A stretch of 64,000 nucleotides of DNA from Siphonodentalium dalli (taxonomy: Eukaryota; Mollusca; Scaphopoda; Gadilida; Siphonodentaliidae), in contig CP136062.1 in NCBI GenBank assembly GCA_032622095.1, forward strand, positions 40,362,918 through 40,426,917, written 5' to 3'. Both the position numbers and the translations under genes were made by a program. The notes under the pieces are model-generated. The model saw only the letters and a program-made list of their open reading frames with translations, did no database searches and had not been told where the DNA came from. Shown here piece after piece: positions 17,690 through 57,920 of the stretch; position 1 is the first letter of the stretch, and every line of letters starts with the position of its first letter.

Positions 17690-20334
17690 CACCACACACA
17701 TATATATAGGTATCCCCGCCACACACATATATAGGTATCCCCACCACATACATATATAGGTCTCCCCACCACATACATATATAGGTATCCCCACCACACA
17801 CATCTATAGGTATCCCCACCACACACATATATTGGTATCACCACCACATATATATATAGGTATCCCCGCCACACACATATATAGGTATTCCCGCCACATA
17901 CATATATAGGTATCCCCACCACACACATCTATAGGTATCCCCACCATATACATATATAGGTATCACCACCACACACATATATAGGTATCACCACCACACA
18001 CATATATAGGTCTCACCACCACATACATCTATAGGTATCCCCACCACATCCATCTATATGTATCCCCACCACACACAGATCTATAGGTATCCCCACCAGC
18101 CACATATATAGGTATTCCCACAATACACATCTATAGTTATCCCCGCCACACACATATATAGGTATCACCACCACATACATATATAGGTATCCCCACCACA
18201 CACATATATAGGTATCCCCACCACATACATATATAGGTATCACCACCACATACATATATAGGTATCCCCAACACATACATATATAGGTATCCCCACCATA
18301 TACTTATATAGGTATCCCCACCACATACATATATAGGTATCCCCAACACATACATATATAGTTATCCCCACCATATACTTATATAGGTATCCCCACCACA
18401 TAGTTATATAGGTATCCCCACCACATACATCTATAGGTATCCCCATCACAAACATATATAGGTATCCCCACCACATACATATATAGGTATCCCCACTACA
18501 TACATATATAGCTATCCCCACCACATACATCTATAGATATCACCGCCACATACATCTATAGGTATCCCCACCACATACATATATAGGTATCCCCGCCACA
18601 CACATATATAGGTATCCCCACCACACACATATATAGGTATCACCACCACACACATATATAGGTATCCCCGGCACATACATATGTAGGTATCCCCAACACA
18701 TACATATATAGGTATCACCACCACACACATATATAGGTATCCCCACCATATACATATATAGGTATCCCCATCACATACATTTATAGGTATCCCCACCACA
18801 CACATATATAGGTATCCCCACCACATACATATATAGGTATCCCCACCACATACATATATAGGTATCCCCACCACATACATCTATACGTGTCCCCACCACA
18901 CACATATATAGGTATCCCCACCACATACATCTATAGGTATCCCCACCACGCACATATATAGGTATCCCCACCACATACATATATAGGTATCCCCACCACA
19001 TACATATATAGGTATCCCCACCACATACATATATAGGTATCCCCACCTCACACATATATAGGTATCCCCACCACATACATATATAGGTATCACCACCACA
19101 CATATATAGGTATTCCCGCCACATACATATAGGTATCCCCACCACACACATATAGGTATCCCCACCACACACATATATAGGTATCACCACCACATACATA
19201 TATAGGTATCCCCAACACATACATATATAGGTATCCCCACCACATACATATATAGGTATCCCCACCACATACATACATAGGTATCCCCACCACATACATC
19301 TATAGGTATCCCCACCACAAACATATATAGGTATCCACACCACATACATATATAGGTATCCCCACCACATACATATATAGCTATCCCCACCACATACATA
19401 TATAGGTATCACCGCGACATACATCTATAGGTATCCCCACCACATACATATATAGGTATCCCCGCCACACACATATATAGGTATTCCCACCACACACATA
19501 TATAGGTATCACCACCACACACATATATAGGTATCCCCGCCACATACATATGTAGGTATCCCCACCACATACATATATAGGTATCACCACCACACACATA
19601 TATAGGTATCCCCACCACATACATATATAGGATTCCCATCACATACATATATAGGTATCCCCACCACATACATATATAGGTATCCCCACCACATACATAT
19701 ATAGGTATCCCCATCACATACATCTATATGTATCCCCACCACACACATATATAGGTATCCCCACCACATACATATATAGGTATCCCCACCACGCACATAT
19801 ATAGGTATCCCCACCACATATATCTATAGGTATCCCCACCACATACATATATAGGTATCCCCACCACATACATATATAGGTATCCCCACCACATACATAT
19901 ATAGGTATCCCCACCACATATATCTATAGGTATCCCCACCACATACATATATAGGTATCCCCACCACATACATATATAGGTATCCCCACCACATACATAT
20001 ATAGGTATCCCCACCACATACATATATAGGTATCCCCATCACATACATCTATATGTATCCCCACCACACACATATATAGGTATCCCCACCACATACATAT
20101 ATAGGTATCCCCACCACATACACCACATACATATATAGGTATCCCCACCACATACATATATAGGTATCCCCACCACATACATATATAGGTATCCCCACCA
20201 CATACATATATAAGTATCCCCACCACATACATCTATAGGTATCCCCACAACATACATATATAGGTATCCCCAACACATACATCTATAGGTATCCCCACCA
20301 CACCATCTATAGGTATCCCCACCATACACATCTA
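17690..20334 (+). repeat. Superblock X, family A part
   Basis: The unit order matches 32,994-35,380 at a constant offset of 15,304 bp over most of its length. Paired landmarks include AGATCT (18,077 and 33,381), CTATACGTGTCC (GTGTCC at 18,887 and 34,191) and AGTTATCC (18,135 and 33,439). The X copy is about 258 bp longer near 19,800-20,250, where units are locally reduplicated at 100-bp spacing. Confidence 0.82.
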
Positions 20335-22710
20335 TAGGGATCCCCACCACACATATATATATATAGGTATCCCCACCATACACATCTATATGTATCACCG
20401 CCACACACATATATAGGTAACCCCACCACATACATCTATTGGTATCCCCACCATACACATCTATAGGTATCCCCACCATACACATCTATATGTATCACCG
20501 CCACACTCATATATAGGTATCCGCACCACATACATCTATAGGTATTACCACCACATACATGTATAGGTATCCCCACCACACACATATAGGTATCCTCACC
20601 ACACACATATATAGGTATCCTCACCACACACATATATAGGTATCCCCGTCACATACATCTATAGGTATCACCACCACATACATCTATAGGTATCACCACC
20701 ACACACATCTATAGGTTTCCCCACCACACACATCTATAGGTATCCTCACCACATACATATATAGGTATCCCCGCCACACACATATATAGGTATCCTCACA
20801 TCACACATCTATAGGTATCCCCATCACACACATATATAGGTATCGCCACCACACACATATATAGTTATCCCCACCACACACATCTATATGTATCCCCACC
20901 ACACACATATATAGGTATCCCCACCACACACATCTATAGGTATCCCCACCAAACACATATATAGGTATCCCCACCACATACATATGTAGGTATCCCCACC
21001 ACATACATATATAGGTATCACAACCACATACATCTATAGATATCACCACCACATACATATATAGGTATCCCCACCACATACGTCTATAGGTATCCCCGCC
21101 ACACACATCTATAGGTATCCTCACCACACACATATATAGGTATCCCCACCACATACACCTATAGGCATCCCCACCACACACATATATAGGTATCCCCAAC
21201 ACACACATATATAGGTATCCCCACCACATACATCTATAGGTATCCCCACCACACACATATAGGTATACCCGCCACACACATCTATAGGTATCACCACCAC
21301 ATACATCTATAGGTAACACCACCACAACATCTATAGGTATCCCCACCACATACATATATAGGTATCCCTACCACATACATCTATATGTATCCCCGCCACA
21401 CACATCTATAGGTATCCTCACCACACACATATATAGGTATCCCCGCCACATACATCTATAGGTATCACCACCACACACATCTATAGGTATTACCACCACA
21501 TACATCTATAGGTATCACCACCACATACATCTATAGGTATACATACCACATACATCTATAGGTATCCCCACCACATACATCTATAGGTATCCCCGCCACA
21601 CACATCTGTAGGTATCCTCACCACACACATATATAGGTTTCCCCACCACATACATATATAGGTATCCCCACCACACACATATATAGGTATCACCACCACA
21701 AACGTCTATATGTATCCCTACCACATACATCTATAGGTAACCCCACCACATACATATATAGGTATCCCCACCACACACATATATAGGTATCGCCACCACA
21801 CACATATATAGTTATCCCCACCACACACATCTATATGTATCCCCACCACACACATATATAGGTATCCCCACCACACGCATCTATAGGTATCCCCACCAAA
21901 CACATATATAGGTATCCCCACCACATACATATGTAGGTATCCCCACCACATACATATAAAGGTATCACCACCACATACATCTATAGATATCACCACCACA
22001 TACATCTATAGGTATCCCCACCACATACATCTATAGGTATCCCCGCCACACACATCTATAGGTATCCTCACCACACACATATATAGGTATCCCCACCACA
22101 TACATCTATAGGTATCCCCACCACACACATATATAGGTATCCCCATCACACACATATATAGGTATCCCCACCACATACATCTATAGGTATCCCCACCACA
22201 CACATATAGGTATACCCGCCACACACATCTATAGGTATCACCACCACATACATCTATAGGTAACACCACCACAACATCTATAGGTATCCCCACCACATAC
22301 ATATATAGGTATCCCTACCACATACATCTATAGGTATCCCCGCCACACACATCTATAGGTATCCTCACCACACACATATATAGGTATCCCCACCACATAC
22401 ATCTATAGGTATCACCACCACACACATCTATAGGTATTACCACCACATACATCTATAGGTATCACCACCACATACATCTATAGGTATACATACCACATAC
22501 ATCTATAGGTATCCCCACCACATACATCTATAGGTATCCCCGCCACACACATCTGTAGGTATCCTCACCACACACATATACAGGTTTCCCCACCACATAC
22601 ATATATAGGTATCCCCATCACACAAATATATAGGTATCACCACCACAAACGTCTATATGTATCCCTACCACATACATCTATAGGTAACCCCACCACATAC
22701 ATATATAGGT
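20335..22710 (+). repeat. Family B copy in superblock X (B0)
   Basis: It begins at the TAGGGATCC unit and its adjacent (TA)-expanded unit. It contains two GGTATACATACC units 947 bp apart (GTATAC at 21,537 and 22,484), the same spacing seen in the 35-43 kb copies. Compared with copy B1 it lacks about 124 bp net, in the region near 20,570-20,600. At about 22,710 it passes into family C instead of returning to the TAGGGAT unit. Confidence 0.82.
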
Positions 22711-25112
22711 ATCCCCACCACATACATCTATAGGTATCCCCACCACACACATATATAGGTATCAACACCACACACATATATAGGTATCACCACCACATAC
22801 ATCTATATGTATCCCCACCACATACATATATAGGTATCTCCGCCACATACATATATAGGTATCCCCACCACATACATATATAGGTATCCCCACCACAAAC
22901 ATATATAGGTATCCCCATCACACACATATATAGGTATCCCCACCACACACATATATATAGGTATCCCCGCCACACACATATATAGGTATCCCCACCACAT
23001 ACATATATAGGTCTCCCCACCACATACATCTATAGGTATCCCCACCACACACATCTATAGGTATCCTCACCACATACATATATAGGTATCCCCGCCACAC
23101 ACATATATAGGTATCCTCACCACACACATATATATGTATCCCCACCACACACATATATAGGTATCGCCACCACACACATATATAGGTATCCCCACCACAC
23201 ACATCTATAGGTATCCCCACCACACACATATATAGATATCCCCACCATACACATCTATATGTATAACCGCCACACTCATATATAGGTATCCCCACCACAT
23301 ACATCTATAGGTATCACCACCACATACATGTATATGTATCCCCACCACATAAATCTATAGGTATCCCCACCACACACATCAATATGTATCACCACCACAT
23401 ACATATATAGGTATCCCCACCACACACATATATAGGTATCCCCACCACATACATATATAGGTATCCCCACCACACACATATAGGTATCCTCACCACACAT
23501 ATATAGGTATCCTCACCACACACATATATAGGTCTCCCCGCCACATACATATATAGGTATCACCACCACATACATCTATAGTTATCACCACCACATACAT
23601 CTATAGGTATCCCCACCACATTCATCTATAGGTATCCCCACCACATACATCTATATGTATCCCCGCCACACACATCTATCGGTATCCTCACGACACACAT
23701 ATATAGGTATCCCCACCACATACATCTATATGTATCCCCACCACACACATATATAGGTATCCCCACCACAAACATATATAGGTATTCCCACCACATACAT
23801 CTATAGGTATCCCCACCACATACATATATAGGTATCCCCACCACATACATCTATAGGTATCCCCACCACATACATATATAGGTATCCCCACCACATACAT
23901 ATATAGGTATCCCCAACACACACATCTATAGATATCCCCGCCATACACGTCTATAGGTATCCCCTCCACATACATATATAGGTATCCCCACCAAATACAT
24001 CCATATGTATCCCCGCCACACACATCTATAGGTATCCTCACCACACACATATATAGGTATCCCCACCACATACATATATAGGTATCCCCACCACACACAT
24101 ATATAGGTATCACCACCACATACATCTATATGTATCCCCACCACGTACATATATAGGTAACCCCACCACATACATATATAGGTATCCCCACCACATACAT
24201 CTATATGTATCCCCACCACACACATATATAGGTATCACCACCACACACATATATAGGTATCACCACCACATACATCTATAGGTGTCTCCACCACATACAT
24301 CTATGGGTATAACCACCACACACATATATAGGTATCACCACCACATACATCTATAGGTATCTCCACCACATACATCTATGGGTATCCCCGCCACATACAT
24401 ATATAGGTATCCCCACCACATACATATATAGGTAGCACCACCATATACATCTATAGGTATCCCCACCACACACATCTATATGTATCCCCACCACAAACAT
24501 CTATAGGTATCCCCGCCACACACATCTATAGGTATCACCACCACATACATTTATAGGTATCCCCATCACATACATATATAGGTATCCCCACCACATACTT
24601 ATATAGGTATCCCCACAATATACATATATAGGTATCCTCACCACATACATATATAGGTATCCCCACCACATACATATATAGGTATCCCCACCACATACAT
24701 CTATGTGTATCCCCACCACACACATATATAGGTATCCCCACCACATACATATATAGGTATCCCCACCACACACATATATAGGTATCCCCACCACATACAT
24801 ATATAGGTATCCCCACCACATACATCTATATGTATCCCCACCAAACACATATATAGGTATCCCCACCACATACATATATAGGTATCCCCACCACATACAT
24901 ATATAGGTATCCCCACCACATACATATATAGGTATCCCCACCACATACATATATAGGTATCCACACCACATACATCTATAAGTATCCACATCACATACAT
25001 ATATAGGTATCCCCACCACATACATATATAGGTATCCCCACCACATACATATACAGGTATCCCCACCACATACATCTATAGGTATCCCCACCACATACAT
25101 ATATATGTATCC
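22018..25112 (+). repeat. [B tail + family C] tandem repeat, copy 1
   Basis: A block of about 3.1 kb that is repeated directly downstream. Offsets to copy 2 are 3,095 bp at the left, 3,195 bp after a private 100-bp duplication in copy 2, 3,145 bp at the GGTATCTCCGCC unit and 3,100 bp at the CTATGGGTAT unit (24,301 and 27,401). Family C is marked by CTATGGGTAT and by CATACTTATATAGG units. No gene is present. Confidence 0.78.
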
Positions 25113-28100
25113 TCACCACATACATATATAGGTATCCCCGCCACACACATATATAGGTATCCCCACCACACACATATATAGGTATCCCCACCACATACAT
25201 CTATAGGTATCCCCACCACACACATATATAGGTATCCCCATCACACACATATATAGGTATCCCCACCACATACATCTATAGGTATCCCCACCACACACAT
25301 ATAGGTATATCCGCCACACACATCTATAGGTATCACCACCACATACATCTATAGGTAACACCACCACAACATCTATAGGTATCCCCACCACATACATATA
25401 TAGGTATCCCTACCACATACATATATAGGTATCCCCGCCACACACATCTATAGGTATCCTCACCACACACATATATAGGTATCCCCACCACATACTTCAT
25501 TAGGTCTCCCTACCACATACATCTATAGGTATCCCCGCCACACACATCTATAGGTATCCTCACCACACACATATATAGGTATCCCCACCACATACTTCAT
25601 TAGGTATCACCACCACACACATCTATAGGTATTACCACCACATACATCTATAGGTATCACCACCACATACATCTATAGGTATACATACCACATACATCTA
25701 TAGGTATCCCCACCACATACATCTATAGGTATCCCCGCCACACACATCTGTAGGTATCCTCACCACACACATATACAGGTTTCCCCACCACATACATATA
25801 TAGGTATCCCCATCACACACATATATAGGTATCACCACCACAAACGTCTATATGTATCCCCACCACATACATCTATAGGTATCCCCACCACACACATATA
25901 TAGGTATCAACACCACACTCATATATAGGTATCACCACCACATACATCTATATGTATCCCCACCACATACATATATAGGTATCTCCGCCACATACATATA
26001 TAGGTATCCCCGCCACATACATATATAGGTATCCCCGCCACACACATATATAGGTATCCCCATCACACACATATATAGGTATCCCCACCACACACATATA
26101 TATAGGTATCCCCGCCACACACATATATAGGTATCCCCACCACATACATATATAGGTCTCCCCACCACATACATCTATAGGTATCCCCACCACACACATC
26201 TATAGGTATCCTCACCACAAACATATATAGGTATCCCCGCCACACACATATATAGGTATCGCCACCACACACATATATAGGTATCCCCACCACACACATC
26301 TATAGGTATCCCCACCACACACATATATAGATATCCCCACCATACACATCTATATGTATAACCGCGACACTCATATATAGGTATCCCCACCACATACATC
26401 TATAGGTATCACCACCACATACATGTATAGGTATCCCCACCACATAAATCTATAGGTATCCCCACCACACACATCAATATGTATCACCACCACATACATA
26501 TATAGGTATCCCCACCACACACATATATAGGTATCCCCACCACATACATATATAGGTATCCCCACCACACACATATAGGTATCCTCACCACACACATATA
26601 TAGGTATCCTCACCACACACATATATAGGTCTCCCCGCCACATACATATATAGGTATCACCACCACACACACATATATAGGTATCACCACCACATACATC
26701 TATAGGTATCCCCACCACATTCATCTATAGGTATCCCCACCACATACATCTATATGTATCCCCACCTCACACATCTATAGGTATCCTCACGACACACATA
26801 TATAGGTAACCCCACCACATACATCTATAGGTATCCCCACCACACACATATATAGGTATCCCCACCACAAACATATATAGGTATCCCCACCACATACATC
26901 TATAGGAAATCCCCATCACATACATATATAGGTATCCCCACCACATACATCTATAGGTATCCCCACCACATACATATATAGGTATCCCCACCACATACAT
27001 ATATAGGTATCCCCAACACACACATCTATAGATATCCCCGCCATACACGTCTATAGGTATCCCCTCCACATACATATATAGGTATCCCCACCAAATACAT
27101 CCATATGTATCCCCGCTACACACATCTATAGGTATCCTCACCACACACATATATAGGTATCCCCACCACATACATATATAGGTATCCCCACCACACACAT
27201 ATATAGGTATCACCACCACATACATCTATATGTATCCCCACCACGTACATATATAGGTAACCCCACCACATACAAATATAGGTATCCCCACCACATACAT
27301 CTATAGGTATCCCCACCACACACATATATAGGTATCACCACCACACACATATATAGGTATCACCACCACATACATCTATAGGTATCTCCACCACATACAT
27401 CTATGGGTATAACCACCACACACATATATAGGTATCACCACCACATACATCTATAGGTATCTCCACCACATACATCTATGGGTATCCCCGCCACATACAT
27501 ATATAGGTATCCCCACCACATACATATATAGGTAGCACCACCATATACATCTATAGGTATCCCCACCACACACATCTATAGGTATCCCCACCACACACAG
27601 CTATAGGTATCCCCACCACACACATCTATAGGTATCACCACCACATACATTTATAGGTATCCCCATCACATACATATATAGGTATCCCCACCACATACTT
27701 ATATAGGTATCCCCACAATATACATCTATAGGTATCCTCACCAAATACATATATAGGTATCCCCACCACATACATATATAGGTATTCCCACCACATACAT
27801 CTATATGTATCCCCACCACACACATATATAGGTATCCCCACCACATACATATATAGGTATCCCCACCACACACATATATAGGTATCCCCACCACATACAT
27901 ATATAGGTATCCCCACCACATACATCTATATGTACCCCCACCACACACATATATAGGTATCCCCACCACATACATATATAGGTATCCCCACCACATACAT
28001 ATATAGGTATCCCCACCACATACATATATAGGTATCCCCACCACATACATATATAGGTCTCCCCACCACATACATCTATAAGTATCCCCACCACATACAT

Positions 28101-28200
28101 ATATAGGTATCCCCACCACATACATATATAGGTATCCCCACCACATACATATAGAGGTATCCCCACCACATACATCTATAGGTATCCCCACCACATACAT
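25113..28200 (+). repeat. [B tail + family C] tandem repeat, copy 2
   Basis: It repeats the order of copy 1: a B-like tail (25,113 to about 25,856, with GGTATACATACC at 25,678) followed by family C (about 25,857-28,200). The C part is matched a third time at about 51,900-54,238, with an offset of 26,191 bp at the left and 26,038 bp at the right. Confidence 0.78.
25405..25604 (+). repeat. Private 100-bp (4-unit) tandem duplication
   Basis: The odd unit ending CATACTTCATTAGG occurs at 25,491 and 25,591 and nowhere else that I saw. The three units before it (CCCGCC, CCTCAC, CCCCAC types) are the same in both copies. The duplication is therefore exactly four units and recent. Confidence 0.85.
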
Positions 28201-31200
28201 ATATATGTATCCTCACCACATACATATATAGGCATCCCCGCCACACACATATATAGGTATCCTCACCACACACATCTATAGGTATCCCCACCACACACAT
28301 ATATAGGTATCGCCACCACACACATATATAGGTATCCCCACCACACACATATATAGGTATCCCCACCACACACATATATAGCTATCCCCACCACACACAT
28401 ATATAGGTATCCCAACCACACACATTTATTGGTATCCCCACCACACACATATATAGGTATCCCCACCACATACATATATAGGTATCCCCACCACATACAT
28501 ATATAGGTATCACCACCACATACATATATAGGTATCCTCACCACACACATCTATAGGTATCCCACCACACACATATATAGGTATCCCCACCACACACATC
28601 TATAGGTATCCCCACCACACATATCTATAGGTATCCCCACTACATACATATATATATGTATCCCCACCACACACATATATAGGTATCCCCACCACATACA
28701 TATATAGCTATCCCCACCACATACATATATACGTATCACCGCCACATACATCAATAGGTATGCCCACCACATACATATATAGGTATCCCCGCCACACACA
28801 TATATAGGTATCCCCACCACACACATATATAGGTATCACCACCACACACATATATAGGTATCCCCGCCACATACATATGTAGGTATCCCCACCACATATA
28901 TATATAGGTATCACCACCACACACATATATAGGTATCCCCACCACATACATATATAGGTATCCCCATCACATACATATATAGGTATCCCCACCACACACA
29001 TATATAGGTATCCCCACCACATACATATATAGGTATCACCACCACATACATATATAGGTATCCCATCACATACATTTATAGGTATCCCAACCACACACAT
29101 ATATAGGTATCCCCACCACATACATATATAGGTATCCCCACCACATACTTATATAGGTATCCCCACCACATACATCTATAAGTGTCCCCACCACACACAT
29201 ATATAGGTATCCCCACCACACACATCTATAGGTATCCCCACCACGCACATATATATAGGTATCCCCACCACATACATATATAGGTATCCCCACCACACAC
29301 ATATATAGGCATCCCCACCACATACATATATAGGTATCACCACCACACACATATATGTATTCCCGCCACATACATATAGGTATCCCCACCACACACATAT
29401 AGGTATCCCCATCACACACATCTATAGGTATCACCACCACATACATATATAGGTATCCCCAACACATACATATATAAGTATCCCCACCACATACTTATAT
29501 AGGTATCCCCACCACATACATATATAGGTATTCCCACCACATACATATATAGGTATGCCCACCACATACATATATAGGTATCCCCACCACATACATATAT
29601 AGGTATCCCCACCACATACATCTATAAGTATCCCCACCACATACATATATAGGTATCCCCACCACATACATCTATAGGTATCCCCACCACATACATATAT
29701 AGGTATCCCCGCCACACACATATATAGGTATCCTCACCACACACATCTATAGGTATCCCCACCACACACATATATAGGTATCGCCACCACACACATATAT
29801 AGGTATCCCCACCACACACATATATAGGTATCCCCACCACACACATATATAGGTATCCCCACCACACACATATATAGGTATCCCAACCACACACATCTAT
29901 TGGTATCCCCACCACACACATATATAGGTATCCCCACCACATACATATATAGGTATCACCACCACACACATATAGGTATTTCCGCCATATACATATAGGT
30001 ATCCCCACCACACACATATAGGTATCCCCACCACACACATCTATAGGTATCACCACCACATACATATATAGGTATCCCCAACACATACATATATAAGTAT
30101 CCCCACCACATACTTATATAGGTATCCCCACCACATACATATATAGGTAATCCCACCACATACATATGTAGGTATCCCCACCACATACATATATAGGTAT
30201 CCCCACCACATACATATATAGGTATCCCCACCACATACATCTATAAGTATCCCCACCACATACATATATAGGTATCCCCACCACATACATCTATAGGTAT
30301 CCCCACCACATACATATATAGGTATCCCCACCACATACATATATATGTATCCCCACCACATACATCTATAGGTATCCCCACCACATACATATATATGTAT
30401 CCTCACCACATACATATATAGGTATCCCCGCCACACACATATATAGGTATCCTCACCACACACATCTATAGGTATCCCCACCACACACATATATAGGTAT
30501 CGCCACCACACACATATATAGGTATCCCCACCACACACATATATAGGTATCCCCACCACACACATATATAGGTATCCCCACCACACACATATATAGGTAT
30601 CCCAACCACCCACATATATTGGTATCCCCACCACACACATATATAGGTATCCCCAACACATACATATATAGGTATCCCCACCACATACATATATAGGTAT
30701 CACCACCACATACATATATAGCTATCCTCATCACACACATCTATAGGTATCCCACCACACACATATATAGGTATCCCCACCACACACATCTATAGGTATC
30801 CCCACCACACATATCTATAGGTATCCCCACTACATACATATATATGTATCCCCACCACACACATATATAGGTATCCCCGCCACATACATATATAGGTATC
30901 CCCGCCACATACATATATAGGTATCCCCACCACATACATATATAGGTATCCCCACCATACACATATATAGATATCCCCACCACACACATATATAGGTATC
31001 CCCACCACACACATATATATATGTATCCCCGCCACACATATATATAGGTAGCCCCACCACATACATATATAGGTCTCCCCACCACATACATCTATAGGTA
31101 TCCCCACCACACACATATATAGGTATCACCACCACATACATATATAGGTATCCCCGCCACACACATATATAGGTATCCCCGCCACATAAATATATAGGTA

Positions 31201-31597
31201 TCCCCACCACACACATATATAGGTATCCCCACCACACACATATATAGGTATCACCACCACATACATATATAGGTATCCCCGCCACACACATATATAGGTA
31301 TCCCCGCCACATACATATATAGGTATCCCCACCACACACATCTATAGGTATCCCCACCATATACATATATAGGTATCACCACCACACACATATATAGGTA
31401 TCCCCACCACACACATATATAGGTATCCCCGCCACATACATATATAGGTATCCCCACCACACACATATATAGGTCTCCCCACCACATACATATATAGGTA
31501 TCCCCACCACACACATCTATATGTATCCCCACCACACACAGATCTATAGGTATCCCCACCACACACATATATAGGTATTCCCACAATACACATCTAT
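28201..31597 (+). repeat. Superblock X, A-prime part
   Basis: Units here resemble both 54,239-57,144 and the region around 2,280-3,240. Landmarks include GTGTCC at 29,182 and the closing AGTTATCC at 31,598. Internally there is partial reduplication: CATACTTATATAGG units recur 619 bp apart (29,492 and 30,111), and units starting GGTATCCCAACC recur near 28,410, 29,880 and 30,600. No gene is present. Confidence 0.72.
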
Positions 31598-32993
31598 AGT
31601 TATCCCCGCCACACACATATATAGGTATCCCCACCACATACATATATAGGTATCCCCACCACACACATATATAGGTATCCCCACCACATACATATATAGG
31701 TATCACCACCACACACATAAAGGTAGTCCCGCCACATACATATAGGTATCCCCACCACACACATATAGGTATCCCCGCCACACACATATATAGGTATCAC
31801 CACCACATACATATATAGGTATCCCCAACACATACATATATAGGTATCCCCACCATATACTTATATAGGTAACCCCACCACATACATATATAGGTATCCC
31901 CACCACATACATCTATAGGTATCCCCACCACAAACATATATAGGTATCCCCACCACATACATATATAGGTATCCCCACCACATACATACATAGCTATCCC
32001 CACCACATACATCTATACGTATCACCGCCACATACATCAATAGGTATCCCCACCACATACATATATAGGTATCCCCGCCACACACATATATAGGTATCCC
32101 CACCACACACATATATAGGTATCACCACCACACACATATATAGGTATCCCCGCCACATACATATGTAGGTATCCCCACCACATATGTATATAGGTATCAC
32201 CACCACACACATATATAGGTATCCCCACTACATACATATATAGGTATCCCCATCACATACATTTATGGGTATCCCCACCACACACATAGTTAGGTATCCC
32301 CACCACATACATATATAGGTATCACCACCACATACATATATAGGTATCCCCATCACATACATTTATAGGTATCCCCACCACACACATATAGGTATTCCCG
32401 CCACATACATATAGGTATCCCCACCACACACATATAGGTATCCCCACCACACACATCTATAGGTATCACCACCACATACATATATAGGTATCCCCAACAC
32501 ATACATATATAAGTATCTCCACCACATACTTATATAGGTATCCCCACCACATACATATATAAGTATTCCCACCACATACATCTATAGGTATCCCCACCAC
32601 AAACATATATAGGTATCCCCACCACATACATATATAGGTATCCCCACCACATACATATAAAGCTATCCCCACCACATACATATAAAGGTATCACAGCCAC
32701 ATACATCTATAGGTATCCCCACCACATACATTTATAGGTATCCCCACCACACACATAGTTAGGTATTCCAACCACACACATATATAGGTATCACCACCAC
32801 ACACATATATAGGTATCCCCGCCACATACATATGTAGGTATCCCCACCACATACATATATAGGTATCACCACCACCCACATATATAGGTATCCCCACCAC
32901 ATACATATATAGGTATTCCCGCCACATACATATATAGGTATCCCCACCACACACATATATTGGTATCCCCACCACACACATATATAGGTATCC
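31598..32993 (+). repeat. Family A link between superblocks X and Y
   Basis: This segment starts at the AGTTATCC landmark (31,598) and ends where the 15,304-bp correspondence with superblock X begins, near 32,990. It contains several units with CATAGTTAGG (near 32,287 and 32,755), which I did not notice elsewhere. Only repeat units are present. Confidence 0.65.
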
Positions 32994-43167: not shown

Positions 43168-44968
43168 TAGGGATACCCACCACATATATATATATATAGG
43201 TATCCCCACCATACACATCTATATGTATCACCGCCACACACATATATAGGTAACCCCACCACATACATCTATTGGTATCCCCACCATACACATCTATAGG
43301 TATCCCCACCATACACATCTATATGTATCACCGCCACACTCATATATAGGTATCCGCACCACATACATCTATAGGTATCACCACCACATACATGTATAGG
43401 TATCCCCACCACATACATCTATAGGTATACATACCACATACATCTATAGGTATCCCCACCACATACATCTATAGGTATCCCCGCCACACACATCTGTAGG
43501 TATCCTCACCACAGACATATATAGGTTTCCCCACCACATACATATATAGGTATCCCCACCAAACACATATATAGGTATCACCACCACAAACGTCTATATG
43601 TATCCCTACCACATACATCTATAGGTAACCCCACCACATACATATATAGGTATCCCCACCACACACATATATAGGTATCGCCACCACACACATATATAGT
43701 TATCCCCACCACACACATCTATATGTATCCCCACCACACACATATATAGGTATCCCCACCACACACATCTATAGGTATCCCCACCAAACACATATATAGG
43801 TATCCCCACCACATACATATGTAGGTATCCCCACCACATACATATATAGGTATCACCACCACATACATCTATAGATATCACCACCACATACATCTATAGG
43901 TAACCCCACCACATACATATATAGGTATCCCCACCACACACATATATAGGTATCGCCACCACACACATATATAGTTATCCCCACCACACACATCTATATG
44001 TATCCCCACCACACACATATATAGGTATCCCCACCACACACATCTATAGGTATCCCCACCAAACACATATATAGGTATCCCCACCACATACATATGTAGG
44101 TATCCCCACCACATACATATATAGGTATCACCACCACATACATCTATAGATATCACCACCACATACATCTATAGGTATCCCCACCACATACATCTATAGG
44201 TATCCCCGCCACACACATCTATAGGTATCCTCACCACACACATATATAGGTATCCCCACCACATACATCTATAGGTATCCCCACCACACACATATATAGG
44301 TATCCCCATCACACACATTTATAGGTATCCCCACCACATACATCCATAGGTATCCCCACCACACACATATAGGTATACCCGCCACAGACATCTATAGGTA
44401 TCACCACCACATACATCTATAGGTAACACCACCACAACATCTATAGGTATCCCCACCACATACATATATAGGTATCCCTACCACATACATCTATAGGTAT
44501 CCCCGCCACACACATCTATAGGTATCCTCACCACACACATATATAGGTATCCCCACCACGTACATCTATAGGTATCACCACCACACACATCTATAGGTAT
44601 TACCACCACATACATCTATAGGTATCACCACCACATACATCTATAGGTATACATACCACATACATCTATAGGTATCCCCACCACATACATCTATAGGTAT
44701 CCCCGCCACACACATCTGTAGGTATCCTCACCACACACATATATAGGTTTCCCCACCACATACATATATAGGTATCCCCACCACACACATATATAGGTAT
44801 CACCACCACAAACGTCTAAATGTATCCCTACCACATACATCTATAGGTAACCCCACCACATACATATATAGGTATCCCCACAACATACATATATAGGTAT
44901 CCCCAACACATACATCTATAGGTATCCCCACCACACCCATCTATAGGTATCCCCACCATACACATCTA
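43168..44968 (+). repeat. Family B copy B4, internally deleted, with a 275-bp duplication (1,801 bp)
   Basis: After the TACATGTATAGG unit and one further unit it jumps straight to GGTATACATACC (GTATAC at 43,425), skipping about 1,070 bp present in B1-B3. It also carries an exact 11-unit tandem duplication (43,624-43,898 and 43,899-44,173). Its landmark reads TAGGGATACC rather than TAGGGATCC. Confidence 0.87.
43624..44173 (+). repeat. 275-bp (11-unit) tandem duplication inside B4
   Basis: GGTAACCCCACC units at 43,624 and 43,899 start two copies of the same 11-unit series (each with GGTATCGCC, ATAGTTATCC, CAAACACATA, CATATGTAGG and ATAGATATCACC units). The duplication accounts exactly for the difference between 1,801 bp (B4) and 1,526 bp (B5). 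Confidence 0.88.
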
Positions 44969-46494
44969 TAGGGATCCCCACCACATATATATATATATAG
45001 GTATCCCCACCATACACATCTATATGTATCACCGCCACACACATATATAGGTAACCCCACCACATACATCTATTGGTATCCCCACCATACACATCTATAG
45101 GTATCCCCACCATACACATCTATATGTATCACCGCCACACTCATATATAGGTATCCGCACCACATACATCTATAGGTATCACCACCACATACATGTATAG
45201 GTATCCCCACCACATACATCTATAGGTATACATACCACATACATCTATAGGTATCCCCACCACATACATCTATAGGTATCCCCGCCACACACATCTGTAG
45301 GTATCCTCACCACACACATATATAGGTTTCCCCACCACATACATATATAGGTATCCCCACCACACACATATATAGGTATCACCACCACAAACGTCTATAT
45401 GTATCCCTACCACATACATCTATAGGTAACCCCACCACATACATATATAGGTATCCCCACCACACACATATATAGGTATCGCCACCACACACATATATAG
45501 TTATCCCCACCACACACATCTATATGTATCCCCACCACACACATATATAGGTATCCCCACCACACACATCTATAGGTATCCCCACCAAACACATATATAG
45601 GTATCCCCACCACATACATATGTAGGTATCCCCACCACATACATATATAGGTATCACCACCACATACATCTATAGATATCACCACCACATACATCTATAG
45701 GTATCCCCACCACATACATCTATAGGTATCCCCGCCACACACATCTATAGGTATCCTCACCACACACATATATAGGTATCCCCACCACATACATCTATAG
45801 GTATCCCCACCACACACATATATAGGTATCCCCATCACACACATTTATAGGTATCCCCACCACATACATCCATAGGTATCCCCACCACACACATATAGGT
45901 ATACCCGCCACAGACATCTATAGGTATCACCACCACATACATCTATAGGTAACACCACCACAACATCTATAGGTATCCCCACCACATACATATATAGGTA
46001 TCCCTACCACATACATCTATAGGTATCCCCGCCACACACATCTATAGGTATCCTCACCACACACATATATAGGTATCCCCACCACGTACATCTATAGGTA
46101 TCACCACCACACACATCTATAGGTATTACCACCACATACATCTATAGGTATCACCACCACATACATCTATAGGTATACATACCACATACATCTATAGGTA
46201 TCCCCACCACATACATCTATAGGTATCCCCGCCACACACATCTGTAGGTATCCTCACCACACACATATATAGGTTTCCCCACCACATACATATATAGGTA
46301 TCCCCACCACACACATATATAGGTATCACCACCACAAACGTCTAAATGTATCCCTACCACATACATCTATAGGTAACCCCACCACATACATATATAGGTA
46401 TCCCCACAACATACATATATAGGTATCCCCAACACATACATCTATAGGTATCCCCACCACACCCATCTATAGGTATCCCCACCATACACATCTA
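44969..46494 (+). repeat. Family B copy B5, internally deleted (1,526 bp)
   Basis: It has the same internal junction as B4 and B6, with GTATACATACC units at 45,226 and 46,173 (947 bp apart). The length equals 61 units of 25 bp plus 1 bp. A CACGTACATC unit near 46,083 is shared with B4 (near 44,558) but not with the full-length copies. Confidence 0.88.
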
Positions 46495-48022
46495 TAGGGA
46501 TCCCCACCACATATATATATATATAGGTATCCCCACCATACACATCTATATGTATCACCGCCACACACATATATAGGTAACCCCACCACATACATCTATT
46601 GGTATCCCCACCATACACATCTATAGGTATCCCCACCATACACATCTATATGTATCACCGCCACACTCATATATAGGTATCCGCACCACATACATCTATA
46701 GGTATCACCACCACATACATGTATAGGTATCCCCACCACATACATCTATAGGTATACATACCACATACATCTATAGGTATCCCCACCACATACATCTATA
46801 GGTATCCCCGCCACACACATCTGTAGGTATCCTCACCACACACATATATAGGTTTCCCCACCACATACATATATAGGTATCCCCACCACACACATATATA
46901 GGTATCACCACCACAAACGTCTATATGTATCCCTACCACATACATCTATAGGTAACCCCACCACATACATATATAGGTATCCCCACCACACACATATATA
47001 GGTATCGCCACCACACACATATATAGTTATCCCCACCACACACATCTATATGTATCCCCACCACACACATATATAGGTATCCCCACCACACACATCTATA
47101 GGTATCCCCACCAAACACATATATAGGTATCCCCACCACATACATATGTAGGTATCCCCACCACATACATATATAGGTATCACCACCACATACATCTATA
47201 GATATCACCACCACATACATCTATAGGTATCCCCACCACATACATCTATAGGTATCCCCGCCACACACATCTATAGGTATCCTCACCACACACATATATA
47301 GGTATCCCCACCACATACATCTATAGGTATCCCCACCACACACATATATAGGTATCCCCATCACACACATTTATAGGTATCCCCACCACATACATCCATA
47401 GGTATCCCCACCACACACATATAGGTATACCCGCCACAGACATCTATAGGTATCACCACCACATACATCTATAGGTAACACCACCACAACATCTATAGGT
47501 ATCCCCACCACATACATATATAGGTATCCCTACCACATACATCTATAGGTATCCCCGCCACACACATCTATAGGTATCCTCACCACACACATATATAGGT
47601 ATCCCCACCACATACATCTATAGGTATCACCACCACACACATCTATAGGTATTACCACCACATACATCTATAGGTATCACCACCACATACATCTATAGGT
47701 ATACATACCACATACATCTATAGGTATCCCCACCACATACATCTATAGGTATCCCCGCCACACACATCTGTAGGTATCCTCACCACACACATATATAGGT
47801 TTCCCCACCACATACATATATATAGGTATCCCCACCACACACATATATAGGTATCACCACCACAAACGTCTAAATGTATCCCTACCACATACATCTATAG
47901 GTAACCCCACCACATACATATATAGGTATCCCCACAACATACATATATAGGTATCCCCAACACATACATCTATAGGTATCCCCACCACACCCATCTATAG
48001 GTATCCCCACCATACACATCTA
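46495..48022 (+). repeat. Family B copy B6, internally deleted (1,528 bp)
   Basis: Same structure as B5, with GTATACATACC at 46,752 and 47,699. The 2-bp excess over B5 is one extra TA in a unit near 47,820. Confidence 0.88.
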
Positions 48023-51000
48023 TAGGGATCCCCACCACATATATATATATATAGGTATCCCCACCATACACATCTATATGTATCACCGCCACACACATAT
48101 ATAGGTAACCCCACCACATACATCTATTGGTATCCCCACCATACACATCTATAGGTATCCCCACCATACACATCTATATGTATCACCGCCACACTCATAT
48201 ATAGGTATCCGCACCACATACATCTATAGGTATCACCACCACATACATGTATAGGTATCCCCACCACATACATCTATAGGTATCCCCACCACACACATCT
48301 ATATGTATCACCACCACATACATATATAGGTATCCCCACCACACACATATATAGGTATCCCCACGACATACATATATAGGTATCCCCACCACACACATAT
48401 AGGTATCCTCACCACACACATATATAGGTATCCTCACCACACACATATATAGGTATCCCCGTCACATACATCTATAGGTATCACCACCACATACATCTAT
48501 AGGTATCACCACCACACACATCTATAGGTTTCCCCACCACACACATCTATAGGTATCCTCACCACATACATATATAGGTATCCCCGCCACACACATATAT
48601 AGGTATCCTCACCTCACACATCTATAGGTATCCCCACCACACACATATATAGGTATCGCCACCACACACATATATAGTTATCCCCACCACACACATCTAT
48701 ATGTATCCCCACCACACACATATATAGGTATCCCCACCACACACATCTAGAGGTATCCCCACCAAACACATATATAGGTATCCCCACCACATACATATGT
48801 AGGTATCCCCACCACATACATATATAGGTATCACCACCACATACATCTATAGATATCACCACCACATACATCTATAGCTATCCCCACCACATACGTCTAT
48901 AGGTATCCCCGCCACACACATCTATAGGTATCCTCAGCACACACATATATAGGTATCCCCACCACATACATCTATAGGTATCCCCACCACACACATATAT
49001 AGGTATCCCCAACACACACATATATAGGTATCCCCACCACATACATCTATAGGTATCCCCACCACACACATATAGGTATACCCGCCACACATATCTATAG
49101 GTATCACCACCACATACATCTATAGGTAACACCACCACAACATCTATAGGTATCCCCACCACATACATATATAGGTATCCCTACCACATACATCTATAGG
49201 TATCCCCGCCACACACATCTATAGGTATCCTCACCACACACATATATAGGTATCCCCACCACATACATCTATAGGTATCACCACCACACACATCTATAGG
49301 TATTACCACCACATACATCTATAGGTATCACCACCACATACATCTATAGGTATACATACCACATACATCTATAGGTATCCCCACCACATACATCTATAGG
49401 TATCCCCGCCACACACATAAGTAGGTATCCTCACCACACACATATATAGGTTTCCCCACCACATACATATATAGGTATCCCCACCACACACATATATAGG
49501 TATCACCACCAGAAACGTCTATATGTATCCCTACCACATACATCTATAGGTAAGCCCACCACATACATATATAGGTATCCCCACCACACACATATATAGG
49601 TATCGCCACCACACACATATATAGTTATCCCCACCACACACATCTATATGTATCCCCACCACACACATATATAGGTATCCCCACCAAACACATATATAGG
49701 TATCCCCACCACATACATATGTAGGTATCCCCACCACATACATATATAGGTATCACCACCACATACATCTATAGATATCACCACCACATACATCTATAGG
49801 TATCCCCACCACATACATCTATAGGTATCCCCGCCACACACATCTATAGGTATCCTCACCACACACATATATAGGTATCCCCACCACATACATCTATATG
49901 TATCCCCACCACACACATATTTAGGTATCCCCATCACACACATATATAGGTATCCCCACCACATACATCCATAGGTATCCCCACCACACACATATAGGTA
50001 TACCCGCCACACACATCTATAGGTATCACCACCACATACATCTATAGGTAACACCACCACAACATCTATAGGTATCCCCACCACATACATATATAGGTAT
50101 CCCTACCACATACATCTATAGGTATCCCCGCCACACACATCTATAGGTATCCTCACCACACACATATATAGGTATCCCCACCACATACATCTATAGGTAT
50201 CACCACCACACACATCTATAGGTATTACCACCACATACATCTATAGGTATACATACCACATACATCTATAGGTATCCCCACCACATACATCTATAGGTAT
50301 CCCCGCCACACACATCTGTAGGTATCCTCACCACACACATATATTGGTTTCCCCACCACATACATATATAGGTATCCCCACCACACACATATATAGGTAT
50401 CACCACCACAAACGTCTATATGTATCCCTACCACATACATCTATAGGTAACCCCACCACATACATATATAGGTATCCCTACCACATACATCTATAGGTAT
50501 CCCCGCCACACAGATCTATAGGTATCCCCACCACATACATATGTAGGTATCCCCACCACATACATATATAGGTATCACCACCACATACATCTATAGATAT
50601 CACCACCACATACATCTATAGGTATCCCCACCACATACATCTATAGGTATCCCCGCCACACACATCTATAGGTATCCTCACCACACACATATATAGGTAT
50701 CCCCACCACATACATCTATAGGTATCCCCACCACACACATATATAGGTATCCCCATCTCACACATTTATAGGTATCCCCACCACATACATCCATAGGTAT
50801 CCCCACCACACATATATAGGTATACCCGCCACAGACATCTATAGGTATCACCACCACATACATCTATAGGTAACACCACCACAACATCTATAGGTATCCC
50901 CACCACATACATATATAGGTATCCCTACCACAACATCTATAGGTATCCCCACCACATACATATATAGGTATCCCTACCACATACATCTATAGGTATCACC

Positions 51001-51389
51001 ACCACACACATCTATAGGTATTACCACCACATACATCTATAGGTATCACCACCACATACATCTATAGGTATACATACCACATACATCTATAGGTATCCCC
51101 ACCACATACATCTATAGGTATCCCCGCCACACACATCTGTAGGTATCCTCACCACACACATATATAGGTTTCCCCACCACATACATATATAGGTATCCCC
51201 ACCACACACATATATAGGTATCACCACCACAAACGTCTAAATGTATCCCTACCACATACATCTATAGGTAACCCCACCACATACATATATAGGTATCCCC
51301 ACAACATACATATATAGGTATCCCCAACACATACATCTATAGGTATCCCCACCACACCCATCTATAGGTATCCCCACCATACACATCTA
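48023..51389 (+). repeat. Family B copy B7, expanded (3,367 bp)
   Basis: It keeps the segment that is deleted in B4-B6 and carries three GTATACATACC units (49,350, 50,247 and 51,068; spacings 897 and 821 bp) instead of two. It therefore appears to contain a third, trimmed version of the 947-bp subrepeat. The excess over 2,596 bp is 771 bp. Confidence 0.85.
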
Positions 51390-51819
51390 TAGGGATCCCC
51401 ACCACATATATATATATATAGGTATCCCCACCATACACATCTATATGTATCACCGCCACACACATATATAGGTAACCCCACCACATACATCTATTGGTAT
51501 CCCCACCATACACATCTATAGGTATCCCCACCATACACATCTATATGTATCACCGCCACACTCATATATAGGTATCCGCACCACATACATCTATAGGTAT
51601 CACCACCACATACATGTATAGGTATCCCCACCACATACATCTATAGGTATCCCCACCACACACATCTATATGTATCACCACCACATACATATATAGGTAT
51701 CCCCACCACACACATATATAGGTATCCCCACGACATACATATATAGGTATCCCCACCACACACATATAGGTATCCTCACCACACACATATATAGGTATCC
51801 TCACCACACACATATATAG
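51390..51819 (+). repeat. Family B partial copy B8
   Basis: It starts at TAGGGAT (51,390), follows the B order for about 430 bp through the two CCTCACC units, then switches to family C units at about 51,820 (GGTATCACCACCTC, where B has GGTATCCCCGTC). Confidence 0.82.
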
Positions 51820-52419
51820 GTATCACCACCTCATACATCTATATGTATCCCCACCACATACATATATAGGTATCTCCGCCACATACATATATAGGTATCC
51901 CCACCACATACATATATAGGTATCCCCACCACACACATATATAGGTATCCCCACCACACACATATATAGGTATCACCACCACAAACGTCTATATGTATCC
52001 CTACCACATACATCTATAGGTAACCCCACCACATACATATATAGGTATCCCCACCACATACATCTATAGGAATCCCCACCACACACATATATAGGTATCA
52101 ACACCACACACATATATAGGTATCACCACCTCATACATCTATATGTATCCCCACCACATACATATATAGGTATCTCCGCCACATACATATATAGGTATCC
52201 CCACCACATACATATATAGGTATCCCCACCACACACATATATAGGTATCCCCATCACACACATATATAGGTATCCCCACCACACACATATATATAGGTAT
52301 CCCCGCCACACACATATATAGGTATCCCCACCACATACATATATAGGTCTCCCCACCACATACATCTATAGGTATCCCCACCACACACATCTATAGGTAT
52401 CCTCACCACATACATATAT
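51820..52419 (+). repeat. 300-bp (12-unit) duplication at the B/C junction
   Basis: The unit word ACCACCTCATACATC occurs at both 51,826 and 52,126, exactly 300 bp apart, followed by the same CTATATGTATCC and GGTATCTCCGCC units. The two 12-unit runs are not fully identical further on, so the right edge is approximate. Confidence 0.75.
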
Positions 52420-54238
52420 AGGTATCCCCGCCACACACATATATAGGTATCCTCACCACACACATCTATATGTATCCCCACCACACACATATATAGGTAT
52501 CGCCACCACACACATATATAGGTATCCCCACCACACACATCTATAGGTATCCCCACCACACACATATATAGGTATCCCCACCATACACATCTATATGTAT
52601 AACCGCCACACTCATATATAGGTATCCCCACCACATACATCTATAGGTATCACCACCACATACATGTATAGGTATCCCCACCACATAAATCTATAGGTAT
52701 CCCCACCACATACATCAATATGTATCACCACCACATACATATATAGGTATCCCCACCACACACATATATAGGTATCCCCACCACATACATATATAGGTAT
52801 CCCCACCACACACATATAGGTATCCTCACCACACACATATATAGGTTTCCTCACCACACACATATATAGGTCTCCCCGCCACATACATATATAGGTTTCA
52901 CCACCACATACATCTATAGGTATCTCCACCACATACATCTATAGGTATCCCCAACACATACATATATAGGTATCCCCACCACATACATCTATAGGTATCC
53001 CCACCACATACATATATAGGTATCCCCACCACATACATATATAGGTATCCCCAACACACACATCTATAGATATCCCCGCCATACACGTCTATAGGTATCC
53101 CCTCCACATACATATATAGGTATCCCCACCAAATACATCCATATGTATCCCCGCCACACACATCTATAGGTATCCTCACCACACACATATATAGGTATCC
53201 CCACCACATACATATATAGGTATCCCCACCACACACATATATAGGTATCACCACCACATACATCTATATGTATCCCCACCACGTACATATATAGGTAACC
53301 CCACCACATACATATATAGGTATCCCCACCACATACATCTATAGGTATCCCCACCACACACATATATAGGTATCACCACCACACACATATATAGGTATCA
53401 CCACCACATACATCTATAGGTATCTCCACCACATACATCTATGGGTATAACCACCACACACATATATAGGTATCACCACCACATACATCTATAGGTATCT
53501 CCACCACATACATCTATGGGTATCCCCGCCACATACATATATAGGTATCCCCACCACATACATATATAGGTAGCACCACCATATACATATATAGGTATCC
53601 ACACCACACACATCTATAGGTATCCCCACCACACACATCTATAGGTATCCCCGCCACACACATCTATAGGTATCCCCGCCACACACATCTATAGGTATCC
53701 CCATCACATACATATATAGGTATCCCCACCACATACTTATATAGGTATCCCCACAATATACATCTATATGTATCCTCACCACATACATATATAGGTATCC
53801 CCACCACATACATATATAGGTATCCCCACCACATACATCTATATGTATCCCCACCACACACATATATAGGTATCCCCACCACATACATATATAGGTATCC
53901 CCACCACACACATATATAGGTATCCCCACCACATACATATATAGGTATCCCCACCACATACATCTATATGTATCCCCGCCACACACATATATAGGTATCC
54001 CCACCACATTCATATATAGGTATCCCCACCACATACATATATAGGTATCCCCACCACATACATATATAGGTATCCCCACCACATACATATATAGGTATCC
54101 CCACCACATACATCTATAAGTATCCCCACCACATACATATATAGGTATCCCCACCACATACATATATAGGTATCCCCACCACATACATATATAGGTATCC
54201 CCACCACATTCATCTATAGGTATCCCCACCACATACAT
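51820..54238 (+). repeat. Superblock Y, family C (single copy)
   Basis: The unit order matches 25,857-28,200 (offsets 26,191 to 26,038 bp) and 22,711-25,100. The CTATGGGTAT unit lies at 53,439. Only one C copy is present here, against two in superblock X. Confidence 0.8.
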
Positions 54239-57144
54239 ATATATGTATCCTCACCACATACATATATAGGTATCCCCGCCACACACATATATAGGTATCC
54301 TCACCACACACATCTATAGGTATCCCCACCACACACATATATAGGTATCGCCACCACACACATATATAGGTATCCCCACCACACACATATATAGGTATCC
54401 CCACCACACACATATATAGGTATCCCCACCACACACATGTATAGGTATCCCAACCGCACATATCTATTGGTATCCCCACCACACATATCTATTGGTATCC
54501 CCACCACATACATATATAGGTATCCCCACCACATACATATATAGGTATCACCACCACATACATATATAGGTATCCTCACCACATACATATATAGGTATCC
54601 TCACCACACACATCTATAGGTATCCCACCACACACATATATAGGTATCCCCACCACACATATCTATAGGTATCCCCACTACATACATATATATGTATCCC
54701 CACCACACACATATATAGGTATCCCCACCACATACATATATAGCTATCCCCACCACATACATATATAGCTATCCCCACCACATACATCTATAGGTATCCT
54801 CACCACATACATATATAGGTATCCCCGCCACACACATATATAGGTATCCCCACCACACACATATATAGGTATCACCACCACACACATATATAGGTATCCC
54901 CGCCACATACATATGTAGGTATCCCCACCACATATATATATAGGTATCACCACCACACACATATATAGGTATCCCCACCACATACATATATAGGTATCCC
55001 CATCACATACATTTATAGGTATCCCCACCACACACATATATAGGTATCCCCACCACATACATATATAGGTATCACCACCACTTACATATATAGGTATCCC
55101 CATCACATACATTTATAGGTATCCCCACCACACACATATATAGGTATCCCCACCACATACATATATAGGTATCCCCACCACATACATATATAGGTATCCC
55201 CACCACATACATCTATAAGTGTCCCCACCACACACATATATAGGTATCCCCACCACACACATCTATAGGTATCCCCACCACGCACAAATATAGGTATCCC
55301 CACCACATATATATATAGGTATCCCCACCACATACATCTATAGGTATCCCCACCACATACATATCCACATACATATATAGGTATCCCCACCACATACATA
55401 TATAGGTATCACCACCACACACATATTTGTATTCCCGCCACATACATATAGGTATCCCCACCACACACATATAGGTATCCCCACCACACACATCTATAGG
55501 TATCACCACCACATACATATATAGGTATCCCCAACACATACATATATAAGAATCCCCACCACATACTTATATAGGTATCCCCACCACATACATATATAGG
55601 TATTCCCACCACATACATATATAGGTATCCCCACCACATACATATATAGGTATCCCCACCACATACATATATAGGTATCCCCACCGCATACATCTATAAG
55701 TATCCCCACCACATACATATATAGGTATCCCCACCACATACATCTATAGGTATCCCCACCACATACATATCCACATACATATATAGGTATCCCCACCACA
55801 CACATATATAGGCATCCCCACCACATACATATATAGGTATCACCACCACACACATATATGTATTCCCGCCACATACATATAGGTATCCCCACCACACACA
55901 TATAGGTATCCCCACCACACACATCTATAGGTATCACCACCACATACATATATAGGTATCCCCAACACATACATATATAAGTATCCCCACCACATACTTA
56001 TATAGGTATCCCCACCACATACATATATAGGTATTCCCACCACATACATATATAGGTATCCCCACCACATACATATATAGGTATCCCCACCACATACATA
56101 TATAGGTATCCCCACCGCATACATCTATAAGTACCCCCACCACATACATATATAGGTATCCCCACCACATACATCTATAGGTATCCCCACCACATACATA
56201 TCCACATACATATATAGGTATCCCCACCACATACATATATAGGTATCCCCACCACACACATATATAGATATCCCAACCACACACATATATAGGTATCCCC
56301 ACCACACACATATATATAGGTATCGCCGCCACACATATATATAGGTATCCCCACCACATACATATATAGGTCTCCCCACCACATACATCTATAGGTATCC
56401 CCACCACACACATATATAGGTATCACCACCACATACATCTATAGGTATCTCCACCACATACATCTATGGGTATCCCCGCCACATACATATATAGGTATCC
56501 CCACCACATACATATATAGGTATCCCCACCACATACATCTATAGGTATCCCCACCACACACATATATAGGTATCACCACCACACACATATATAGGTATCA
56601 CCACCACATACATCTATAGGTATCTCCACCACATACATCTATGGGTATAACCACCACACACATATATAGGTATCACCACCACATACATCTATAGGTATCT
56701 CCACCACATACATCTATGGGTATCCCCGCCACATACATATATAGGTATCCCCACCACATACATATATAGGTATCCCCACCACATACATATATAGGTATCC
56801 CCACCACATACATATATAGGTATCTCCACCACATACATCTATGGGTATCCCCGCCACATACATATATAGGTATCCCCACCACACATATCTATAGGTATCC
56901 CCACCATATACATATATAGATATCACCACCACACACATATATAGGTATCCCCACCACACACATATATAGGTATCCCCGCCACATACATATATAGGTATCA
57001 CCACCACACACATATATAGGTCTCCCCACCACATACATATATAGGTATCCCCACCACACACATCTATATGTATCCCCACCACACACAGATCTATAGGTAT
57101 CCCCACCACACACATATATAGGTATTCCCACAATACACATCTAT
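54239..57144 (+). repeat. Superblock Y, A-prime part
   Basis: Counterpart of 28,201-31,597, ending at the AGTTATCC landmark (57,145). Compound 37-bp units with CATATCCACATAC occur three times (near 55,374, 55,770 and 56,201; spacings 396 and 431 bp). A short run with C-family CTATGGGTAT units (about 56,420-56,860) interrupts the correspondence with superblock X. No gene is present. Confidence 0.75.
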
Positions 57145-57920
57145 AGTTATCCCCGCCACACACATATATAGGTATCCCCACAACATACATATATAGGTAT
57201 CCCCACCACTCACATATATAGGTATCCCAACCACATACATATATAGGTATCACCGCCACATACATCTATAGGTATCCCCACCACATACATATATAGGTAT
57301 CCCCGCCACACACATATATAGGTATCCCCACCACACACATATATAGGTATCACCACCACACACATATATAGGTATCCCCGCCACATACATATGTAGGTAT
57401 CCCCACCACATATATATAAACGTATCACCACCACACACATATATAGGTATCCCCACCACATACATATATAGGTATCCCCATCACATACATTTATAGGTAT
57501 CCCCACCACACACATATATAGGTATCCCCACCACATACATATATAGGTATCACCACCACATACATATATAGGTATCCCCATCACATACATTTATAGGTAT
57601 CCCCACCACACACATATATAGGTATCCCCACCACATACATATATAGGTATCCCCACCACATACATATATAGGTATCCCCACCACATACATCTATAGGTAT
57701 CCCCACCACACACATATATAGGTATCACCACCACAAACGTCTATATGTATCCCTACCACATACATATATAGGTAACCCCACCACATACATATATAGGTAT
57801 CCCCACCACATACATCTATAGGTATCCCCACCACACACATATATAGGTATCAACACCACACACATATATAGGTATCACCACCACATACATCTATATGTAT
57901 CCCCACCACATACATATATA
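57145..57920 (+). repeat. Family A segment matching 3,239-3,990
   Basis: It starts at AGTTATCC and includes the irregular unit with ATATAAACGTATCACC (57,414) and a CAAACGTCTATATG unit near 57,734. Both are also found near 3,485 and 3,804, and again near 63,656 and 63,978. Only repeats are present. Confidence 0.78.

Follow-up and report, generated by a model that had tools for sequence, protein, structure and literature searches.

Two superblocks, X and Y, lie near each other in an array of a 25-bp satellite and contain blocks named A, B, C and A-prime, and the question raised by this locus is how such a pair arose. Satellite DNA usually grows by repeated copying within a tract, and the original prediction derived X and Y from one old segmental duplication of more than 10 kb, after which each copy expanded alone. 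We compared the blocks of X and Y with each other, with the surrounding array and with the rest of the genome.

The stretch of DNA analyzed here (64 kb, C2:40362918-40426917, hereafter the window) lies as a whole inside one head-to-tail array of the 25-bp satellite. Tandem repeat analysis returned 2,563 copies of the unit in the window at 88% matches, and 2,570 unit starts were counted, with 376 different units among them. At all 29 sampling places on contig C2, from 39.880 to 40.605 Mb, the unit ran in the + direction (the last three by eye); the array begins on the left between 39,875,299 and 39,880,000 and ends on the right between 40,604,799 and 40,606,918, giving a length of ∼725–732 kb, provided that there is no interruption between the sampled places. 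With hundreds of kilobases of tandem units in one direction, the array is satellite DNA. We read 276 kb of it in full (244 kb including the window, 17 kb to the right and 15 kb at 40.580–40.595 Mb), of which 212 kb is array sequence beyond the window. More of the 25-bp pattern was seen to the left of the array, at C2:39.596–39.641 Mb, and a second satellite with a period of 185 bp adjoins the array on that side (C2:39862918-39875299). A 64-base piece of the latter has 235 exact matches genome-wide, and the 100 matches listed all lie on contig C1, at 151.07–151.13 and 167.84–167.92 Mb. Unlike the array on contig C2, the 25-bp satellite at C1:167.7–172.4 Mb switches direction between neighboring stretches. 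Literature listings on a 25-bp satellite or comparable repeats contained nothing that could be matched to this animal, which is no proof of absence from print.

The landmark AGTTATCC, which occurs 27 times in the window versus 0.70 expected, was found exactly at 18135, 31598, 33439 and 57145, as had been reported for the limits of X and Y. Six diagonals had been predicted between the two superblocks and were scored as runs of 300-bp windows at ≥95%. Five of them were clear: diagonal 15304 (17672-20044 with 32976-35348, 97.7%), diagonal 15170 (21361-22797 with 36531-37967, 97.5%), diagonal 26191 (25804-26392 with 51995-52583, 94.9% over the run with a peak of 0.990), diagonal 26038 (26895-28568 with 52933-54606, 97.1%) and diagonal 25547 (31157-31730 with 56704-57277, 95.0%, peak 0.990). 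The sixth, 15046, did not rise above the shuffled control, its peak of 0.953 lying inside the control maxima of 0.943–0.957 obtained from ten unit-shuffled controls with 1,500 random offsets each. Further, a scan at 400 bp and 96.5% found 457 segments in the window versus 0 in one unit-shuffled copy. A chance origin of the pattern was rejected by these shuffled controls, in the segment scan as well as on the diagonals. The features are collected in Table 1.

Table 1. Features of the window (positions counted from its first base)
Feature	Position	Strand	Evidence and nearest copies
25-bp satellite array, unit TATCCCCACCACATACATATATAGG	1..64000	+	repeat and unit-start analysis; no part of the window outside the array
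Block A of X	17672..20044	+	diagonal 15304; closest copies at +219 kb (0.55%) and at +96 kb (0.63%)
Block B of X, with a 947-bp internal duplication	20774..22807	+	segment scan
C1, first C copy of X	23801..25457	+	groups in the C1 clade (100/99) with those at +101.5, +117.6 and +223.5 kb
C2, second C copy of X	26900..28560	+	diagonal 26038; groups in the C2 clade (99/96) with those at +104.6 and +120.7 kb
A-prime of X, scrambled relative to Y	28765..31730	+	distance scan, diagonal test
Block A of Y	32976..35348	+	diagonal 15304; closest copy at +127.4 kb (0.39%)
B expansion of Y, spacings of ∼2,596, 1,526 and 1,651 bp	35166..49804	+	landmarks, segments
C of Y (Y-type)	52933..54606	+	diagonal 26038; closest copy at +134.9 kb (0.48%)
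A-prime of Y, scrambled relative to X	54801..57277	+	diagonal test

The order A, B, C, A-prime proposed for both superblocks stood in its first three members, which are colinear in X and Y, as a single duplication would have left them; A-prime is a rearranged mixture rather than a colinear block and stands outside the A-B-C scheme. A 2.3-kb query from A-prime of X (29200-31500) met Y at a distance of 8.6%, within the 7.5–9.4% of the other 42 background minima, and had only two close places in 244 kb, ending at +110.1 kb (3.0%) and +125.3 kb (1.0%). Pieces of 300 bp are common to the A-prime of X and that of Y at several different offsets. For the piece 31157-31730, 5 of 28 other copies were closer than the copy in Y (4.18%) and 2 were tied with it. 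The A query stood at background level over A-prime (8.4–9.2%), and A-prime as a form of A was rejected on this basis at the resolution used. The window also holds 11 whole units of unusual length, ten of which make up five copies of a 37-bp compound and one a 34-bp compound. The 37-bp compound unit (17 + 20) lies at 2527, 55345, 55751, 56182 and 62675 of the window, has 22 occurrences in the 276 kb and may be a lineage mark of A-prime-like blocks. The 34-bp compound unit (20106-20139, near the end of the A diagonal of X) occurs once in the 276 kb and is possibly a junction scar or a late slip.

We next turn to the copy numbers of B and C. Consistent with the seven B copies plus a fragment proposed for Y, landmark spacings of 2595, 2596, 2748, 1526, 1526 and 1651 from 36034 to 48676 give seven B starts, with the fragment at 43698; a search with a 1.9-kb B query separated six of them. 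Likewise, X has one B, the one with the internal duplication, and a C doubled at 3,100 bp. The same 1.9-kb search found one B each in X and the next two superblocks of its type, two each in the Y-type superblocks at +127 and +150 kb, and three, two and two in the three superblocks to the left of the window; in the superblock at +219 kb it found no copy, although the B marker described below occurs there. Sevenfold B looks specific to Y, its two nearest sister superblocks having two copies each, and local expansion is the simplest reading of it, loss in both sisters being possible. That B is expanded in Y only agrees with the part of the original prediction that called for independent local expansion in each copy. 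The doubled C does not: superblocks fall into an X-type, with a short B and two C blocks, and a Y-type, with several B blocks and one C. Two C marker hits, 2,949–3,148 bp apart, were found in 4/10 superblocks, namely X and the three whose A lies near +96, +112 and +219 kb, and a single hit in 6/10. Because the doubled C is common to the other X-type superblocks, the doubling is older than X itself, and a doubling private to X was rejected, all four X-type superblocks having two C.

A 16-copy C tree resolved a C1 clade (4 copies, 100/99), a C2 clade (3 copies, 99/96) and a Y-type clade (6 copies, 96/99), within which the copies from the three superblocks to the left of the window group together as a subclade (100/98). 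The superblock at +219 kb has a second C that lay outside the C2 clade, beside another divergent copy. The C2 copies joined the Y-type C at 73/85 in a 13-copy tree, and another arrangement was obtained at 65/68 in the 16-copy tree; C1 and C2 of X differ by 3.07%, compared with 1.99% for C2 of X versus C of Y. The AU test did not reject a grouping of all X-type C in one clade (p 0.27), and trees and distances are compatible with a doubling of C either before or after the X-type/Y-type split.

If one event had made X and Y, then the blocks of the pair should be closer to each other than to other copies in the array. Both superblocks have closer relatives outside the window. Among 20 other copies, the closest to the A block of X differs from it by 0.55%; the A of Y differs from it by 1.25% and has its own closest copy at 0.39%. 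The C1 block of X is 0.48% from the closest of 15 others; the C2 block is 0.78% from the closest of 15 others, with C of Y next at 1.99%; and C of Y is 0.48% from its closest copy and 1.99–3.19% from the two C of X. The B of X has its closest relative among 19 copies at 1.10% and a B of Y at 1.21%. The copy of the piece 25804-26392 in Y (5.09%) was less close than 5 of 30 others, one of them within X. All of these values are to be set against background medians of 11–13%, versus 0.4–4% between block copies. X and Y were thus no closer to each other than to other blocks for A, C1, the piece 25804-26392 and the end piece of A-prime, the outcome named in the original prediction as contrary to it; for C2 and B this was not clearly so, Y being the second closest of 15 for C2 and copies from Y ranking third and later for B, at 1.21% versus 1.10%.

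Best-partner runs over 244 kb gave a similar picture. Among those listed, 14/14 runs overlapping X pointed outside the window (+72.6 to +93.9 kb) and 0 to Y, and 1/25 overlapping Y (52001-52800) pointed to X, an observation that would fit a direct X-Y duplication; the remaining listed runs of Y had partners among the B copies of Y itself or outside the window. In the trees the superblock A copies form one clade (100/100) whose inner branches are weak, most being under 95 in the larger tree of 21 copies and few starred in the other. The AU test rejected the A of X and the A of Y as sisters (p 0.0016 with 18 copies, 0.008 with 21 copies) and also rejected one clade of the three C copies of the window (p 1.3e-5). 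Overall, the colinear A, B and C, the B expansion confined to Y and the one run shared with X are outweighed by the closer relatives elsewhere, the rejected sister relation and the doubled C of other superblocks, and we consider a single old duplication followed by separate expansion of each copy to be highly improbable. What survives of the original prediction is the copying of stretches of more than 10 kb inside the array and an expansion of B that looks particular to Y.

Such copying included the boundary between the two superblocks. Four listed segments, 98.3–99.0% alike, repeat the X-Y junction region (23468-39546) at +93.77 to +93.85 kb, and 52275-57935 recurs at +82.0 kb (99.2%). The 11.8-kb change of offset, from +93.8 to +82.0 kb, is about the amount expected from the extra B copies of Y. 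The superblock at +112 kb has C copies of X-type, yet over the tree columns its A core does not differ from that of the Y-type superblock at +127 kb, which argues for exchange between the types. To the left of the window, the three superblocks between −80 kb and 0 (C2:40.283–40.363 Mb) recur at ∼28–30 kb, with offsets from 27,993 to 30,685. The stretch from +70 to +90 kb (C2:40.433–40.453 Mb), which sits between Y and the next X-type superblock, has periods of ∼5,153 and 2,650 bp and lies outside the A-B-C scheme.

To count superblocks, exact 40-base sequences served as genome-wide markers for A, B and C, and A hits separated by less than 6 kb were joined. The A marker gave 15 hits, 13 of them at C2:40.282–40.582 Mb and 2 on contig C1. 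The C marker gave 46, distributed over C2:40.257–40.591 Mb (17), C2:84.385–84.411 Mb (7) and contigs C1 (11), C3 (2), C6 (4) and C9 (5), and the B marker gave 107, of which 100 were listed, including all of those on contig C2. From these counts, A is nearly confined to the array on contig C2, whereas B and C are not and also occur without A, for example on contigs C1, C3, C6 and C9. Ten A clusters were found at C2:40.28–40.59 Mb, and in 10/10 B and then C followed ahead of the next A. The 17 C hits of this series comprise 14 inside the ten superblocks and three, at 40.258–40.262 Mb, that precede the first A. Two stretches of ∼37 kb and ∼61 kb without A markers interrupt the series, and the outermost superblock (A at +219 kb) fits the scheme imperfectly, with its odd second C and empty B search. 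A superblock measures ∼13–29 kb, or ∼540 to 1,170 units of 25 bp. The superblocks are blocks of variants in fixed order whose copies are more alike than neighboring units, that is, a higher-order repeat; regular tandem copies of constant length were not found, the distance from A to A ranging from 15.0 to 69 kb and the numbers of B and C varying.

Taken together, the results make it very likely that X and Y are 2 of the 10 marker-defined copies of an irregular, nested higher-order repeat, shaped by repeated copying within the array, later exchange and an expansion of B in Y. Superblocks and at least one X-Y junction would have been copied again within the array, exchange between superblock copies would have continued afterward, and B would then have expanded locally in Y. 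The continued exchange would explain why parts of one superblock have different nearest relatives. The same mosaic of relatives is what gene conversion alone would leave if the superblocks were old and evenly related and local conversion made some pairs look close, but the colinear copies of several kilobases with shared copy-number features such as the doubled C, and the constant offset of ∼93.8 kb maintained across 16 kb, call for the copying of long stretches and make conversion alone highly improbable. The copies lie whole numbers of units apart (38, 61, 104, 124, 608, 613 and 1043), a register partly forced by similarity-based alignment. The products observed are recurrence in a fixed order, two forms, relatives outside the window and unit register; the mechanism that we infer from them is unequal crossing-over in register or break-induced copying, together with conversion.

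Satellite arrays tend to suffer from assembly artefacts, and some superblock copies could represent two haplotypes, or misjoined reads, placed one after the other; copies ∼82–94 kb apart are 98.3–99.2% alike, a level that two haplotypes could show. Given, however, that copies occur at many distances and divergences (0.4–4%) with internal copy-number differences, and that there is no N in the 276 kb read, we regard this origin as very unlikely.

The repeated in-array copying proposed here resembles the evolution of human alpha satellite. The array of the human chromosome 8 centromere, in the available portion of PMC8099727, consists of 171-bp units in higher-order repeats that are regular and arranged in layers of mirror symmetry. 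Like that array, the present one has short units in a larger repeat with variants and parts that differ in age and divergence, and unequal crossing-over plus amplification serves as explanation in both (same portion of PMC8099727). Unlike it, the unit here is 25 bp and there are about ten irregular copies; centromere function has been shown for the chromosome 8 array (PMC8099727, in that portion) and is a possible role here. A second likeness is to the cascading higher-order repeats of human chromosome 15, in which, according to the accessible text of PMC11050224, sub-fragments are repeated inside a larger repeat and variant copies differ in them; the varying numbers of B and C would be the counterpart here. 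The chromosome 15 repeats have 15 or 20 monomers in 429 and 164 copies, compared with ∼540–1,170 monomers in about ten copies here (PMC11050224, same text), and the largest primate higher-order unit named in the accessible part of PMC11276891 is a 59mer. By analogy, the superblock system appears to work like human alpha-satellite higher-order repeat evolution, the very short unit and the large, irregular superblock setting it apart.

Regarding the genome setting, an exact pattern of five units has 45 hits on 7/9 contigs: they lie mid-contig on C1, C3, C5, C6 and C9, but C2 has two regions with them, C8 has them at its start, and C4 and C7 have none for this one pattern. A (peri)centromeric place of the 25-bp array is plausible, and a centromeric role is possible. 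Elsewhere in the genome, core histone genes form tandem clusters on contigs C5, C8 and C9 with a spacing near 4–5 kb (150/520 candidates scored), one locus having together what we take, from the reading of the frames, to be H3 and an H1-like frame; these genes point to an animal. CCCTAA repeats were seen at the start of contig C3 (1/11 contig ends examined), and the insect-type telomere pattern had 0 hits in the genome.

More tentatively, and with low confidence, an array-specific macro-repeat of 13–29 kb, whose two forms can be copied as an X-Y pair, might be the turnover unit of a candidate (peri)centromeric array. If true, the array evolves by the shuffling of whole superblocks and not of single units. 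Relatedness judged from 64 kb of sequence can be misleading, because the nearest relatives, as with X and Y, lie beyond those limits. For this array, in an animal whose chromosomes are very large (contigs of 190–301 Mb), a probable order of events can also be read: the superblock forms come first, whole superblocks and an X-Y junction are copied next, and B expands locally in one copy last.
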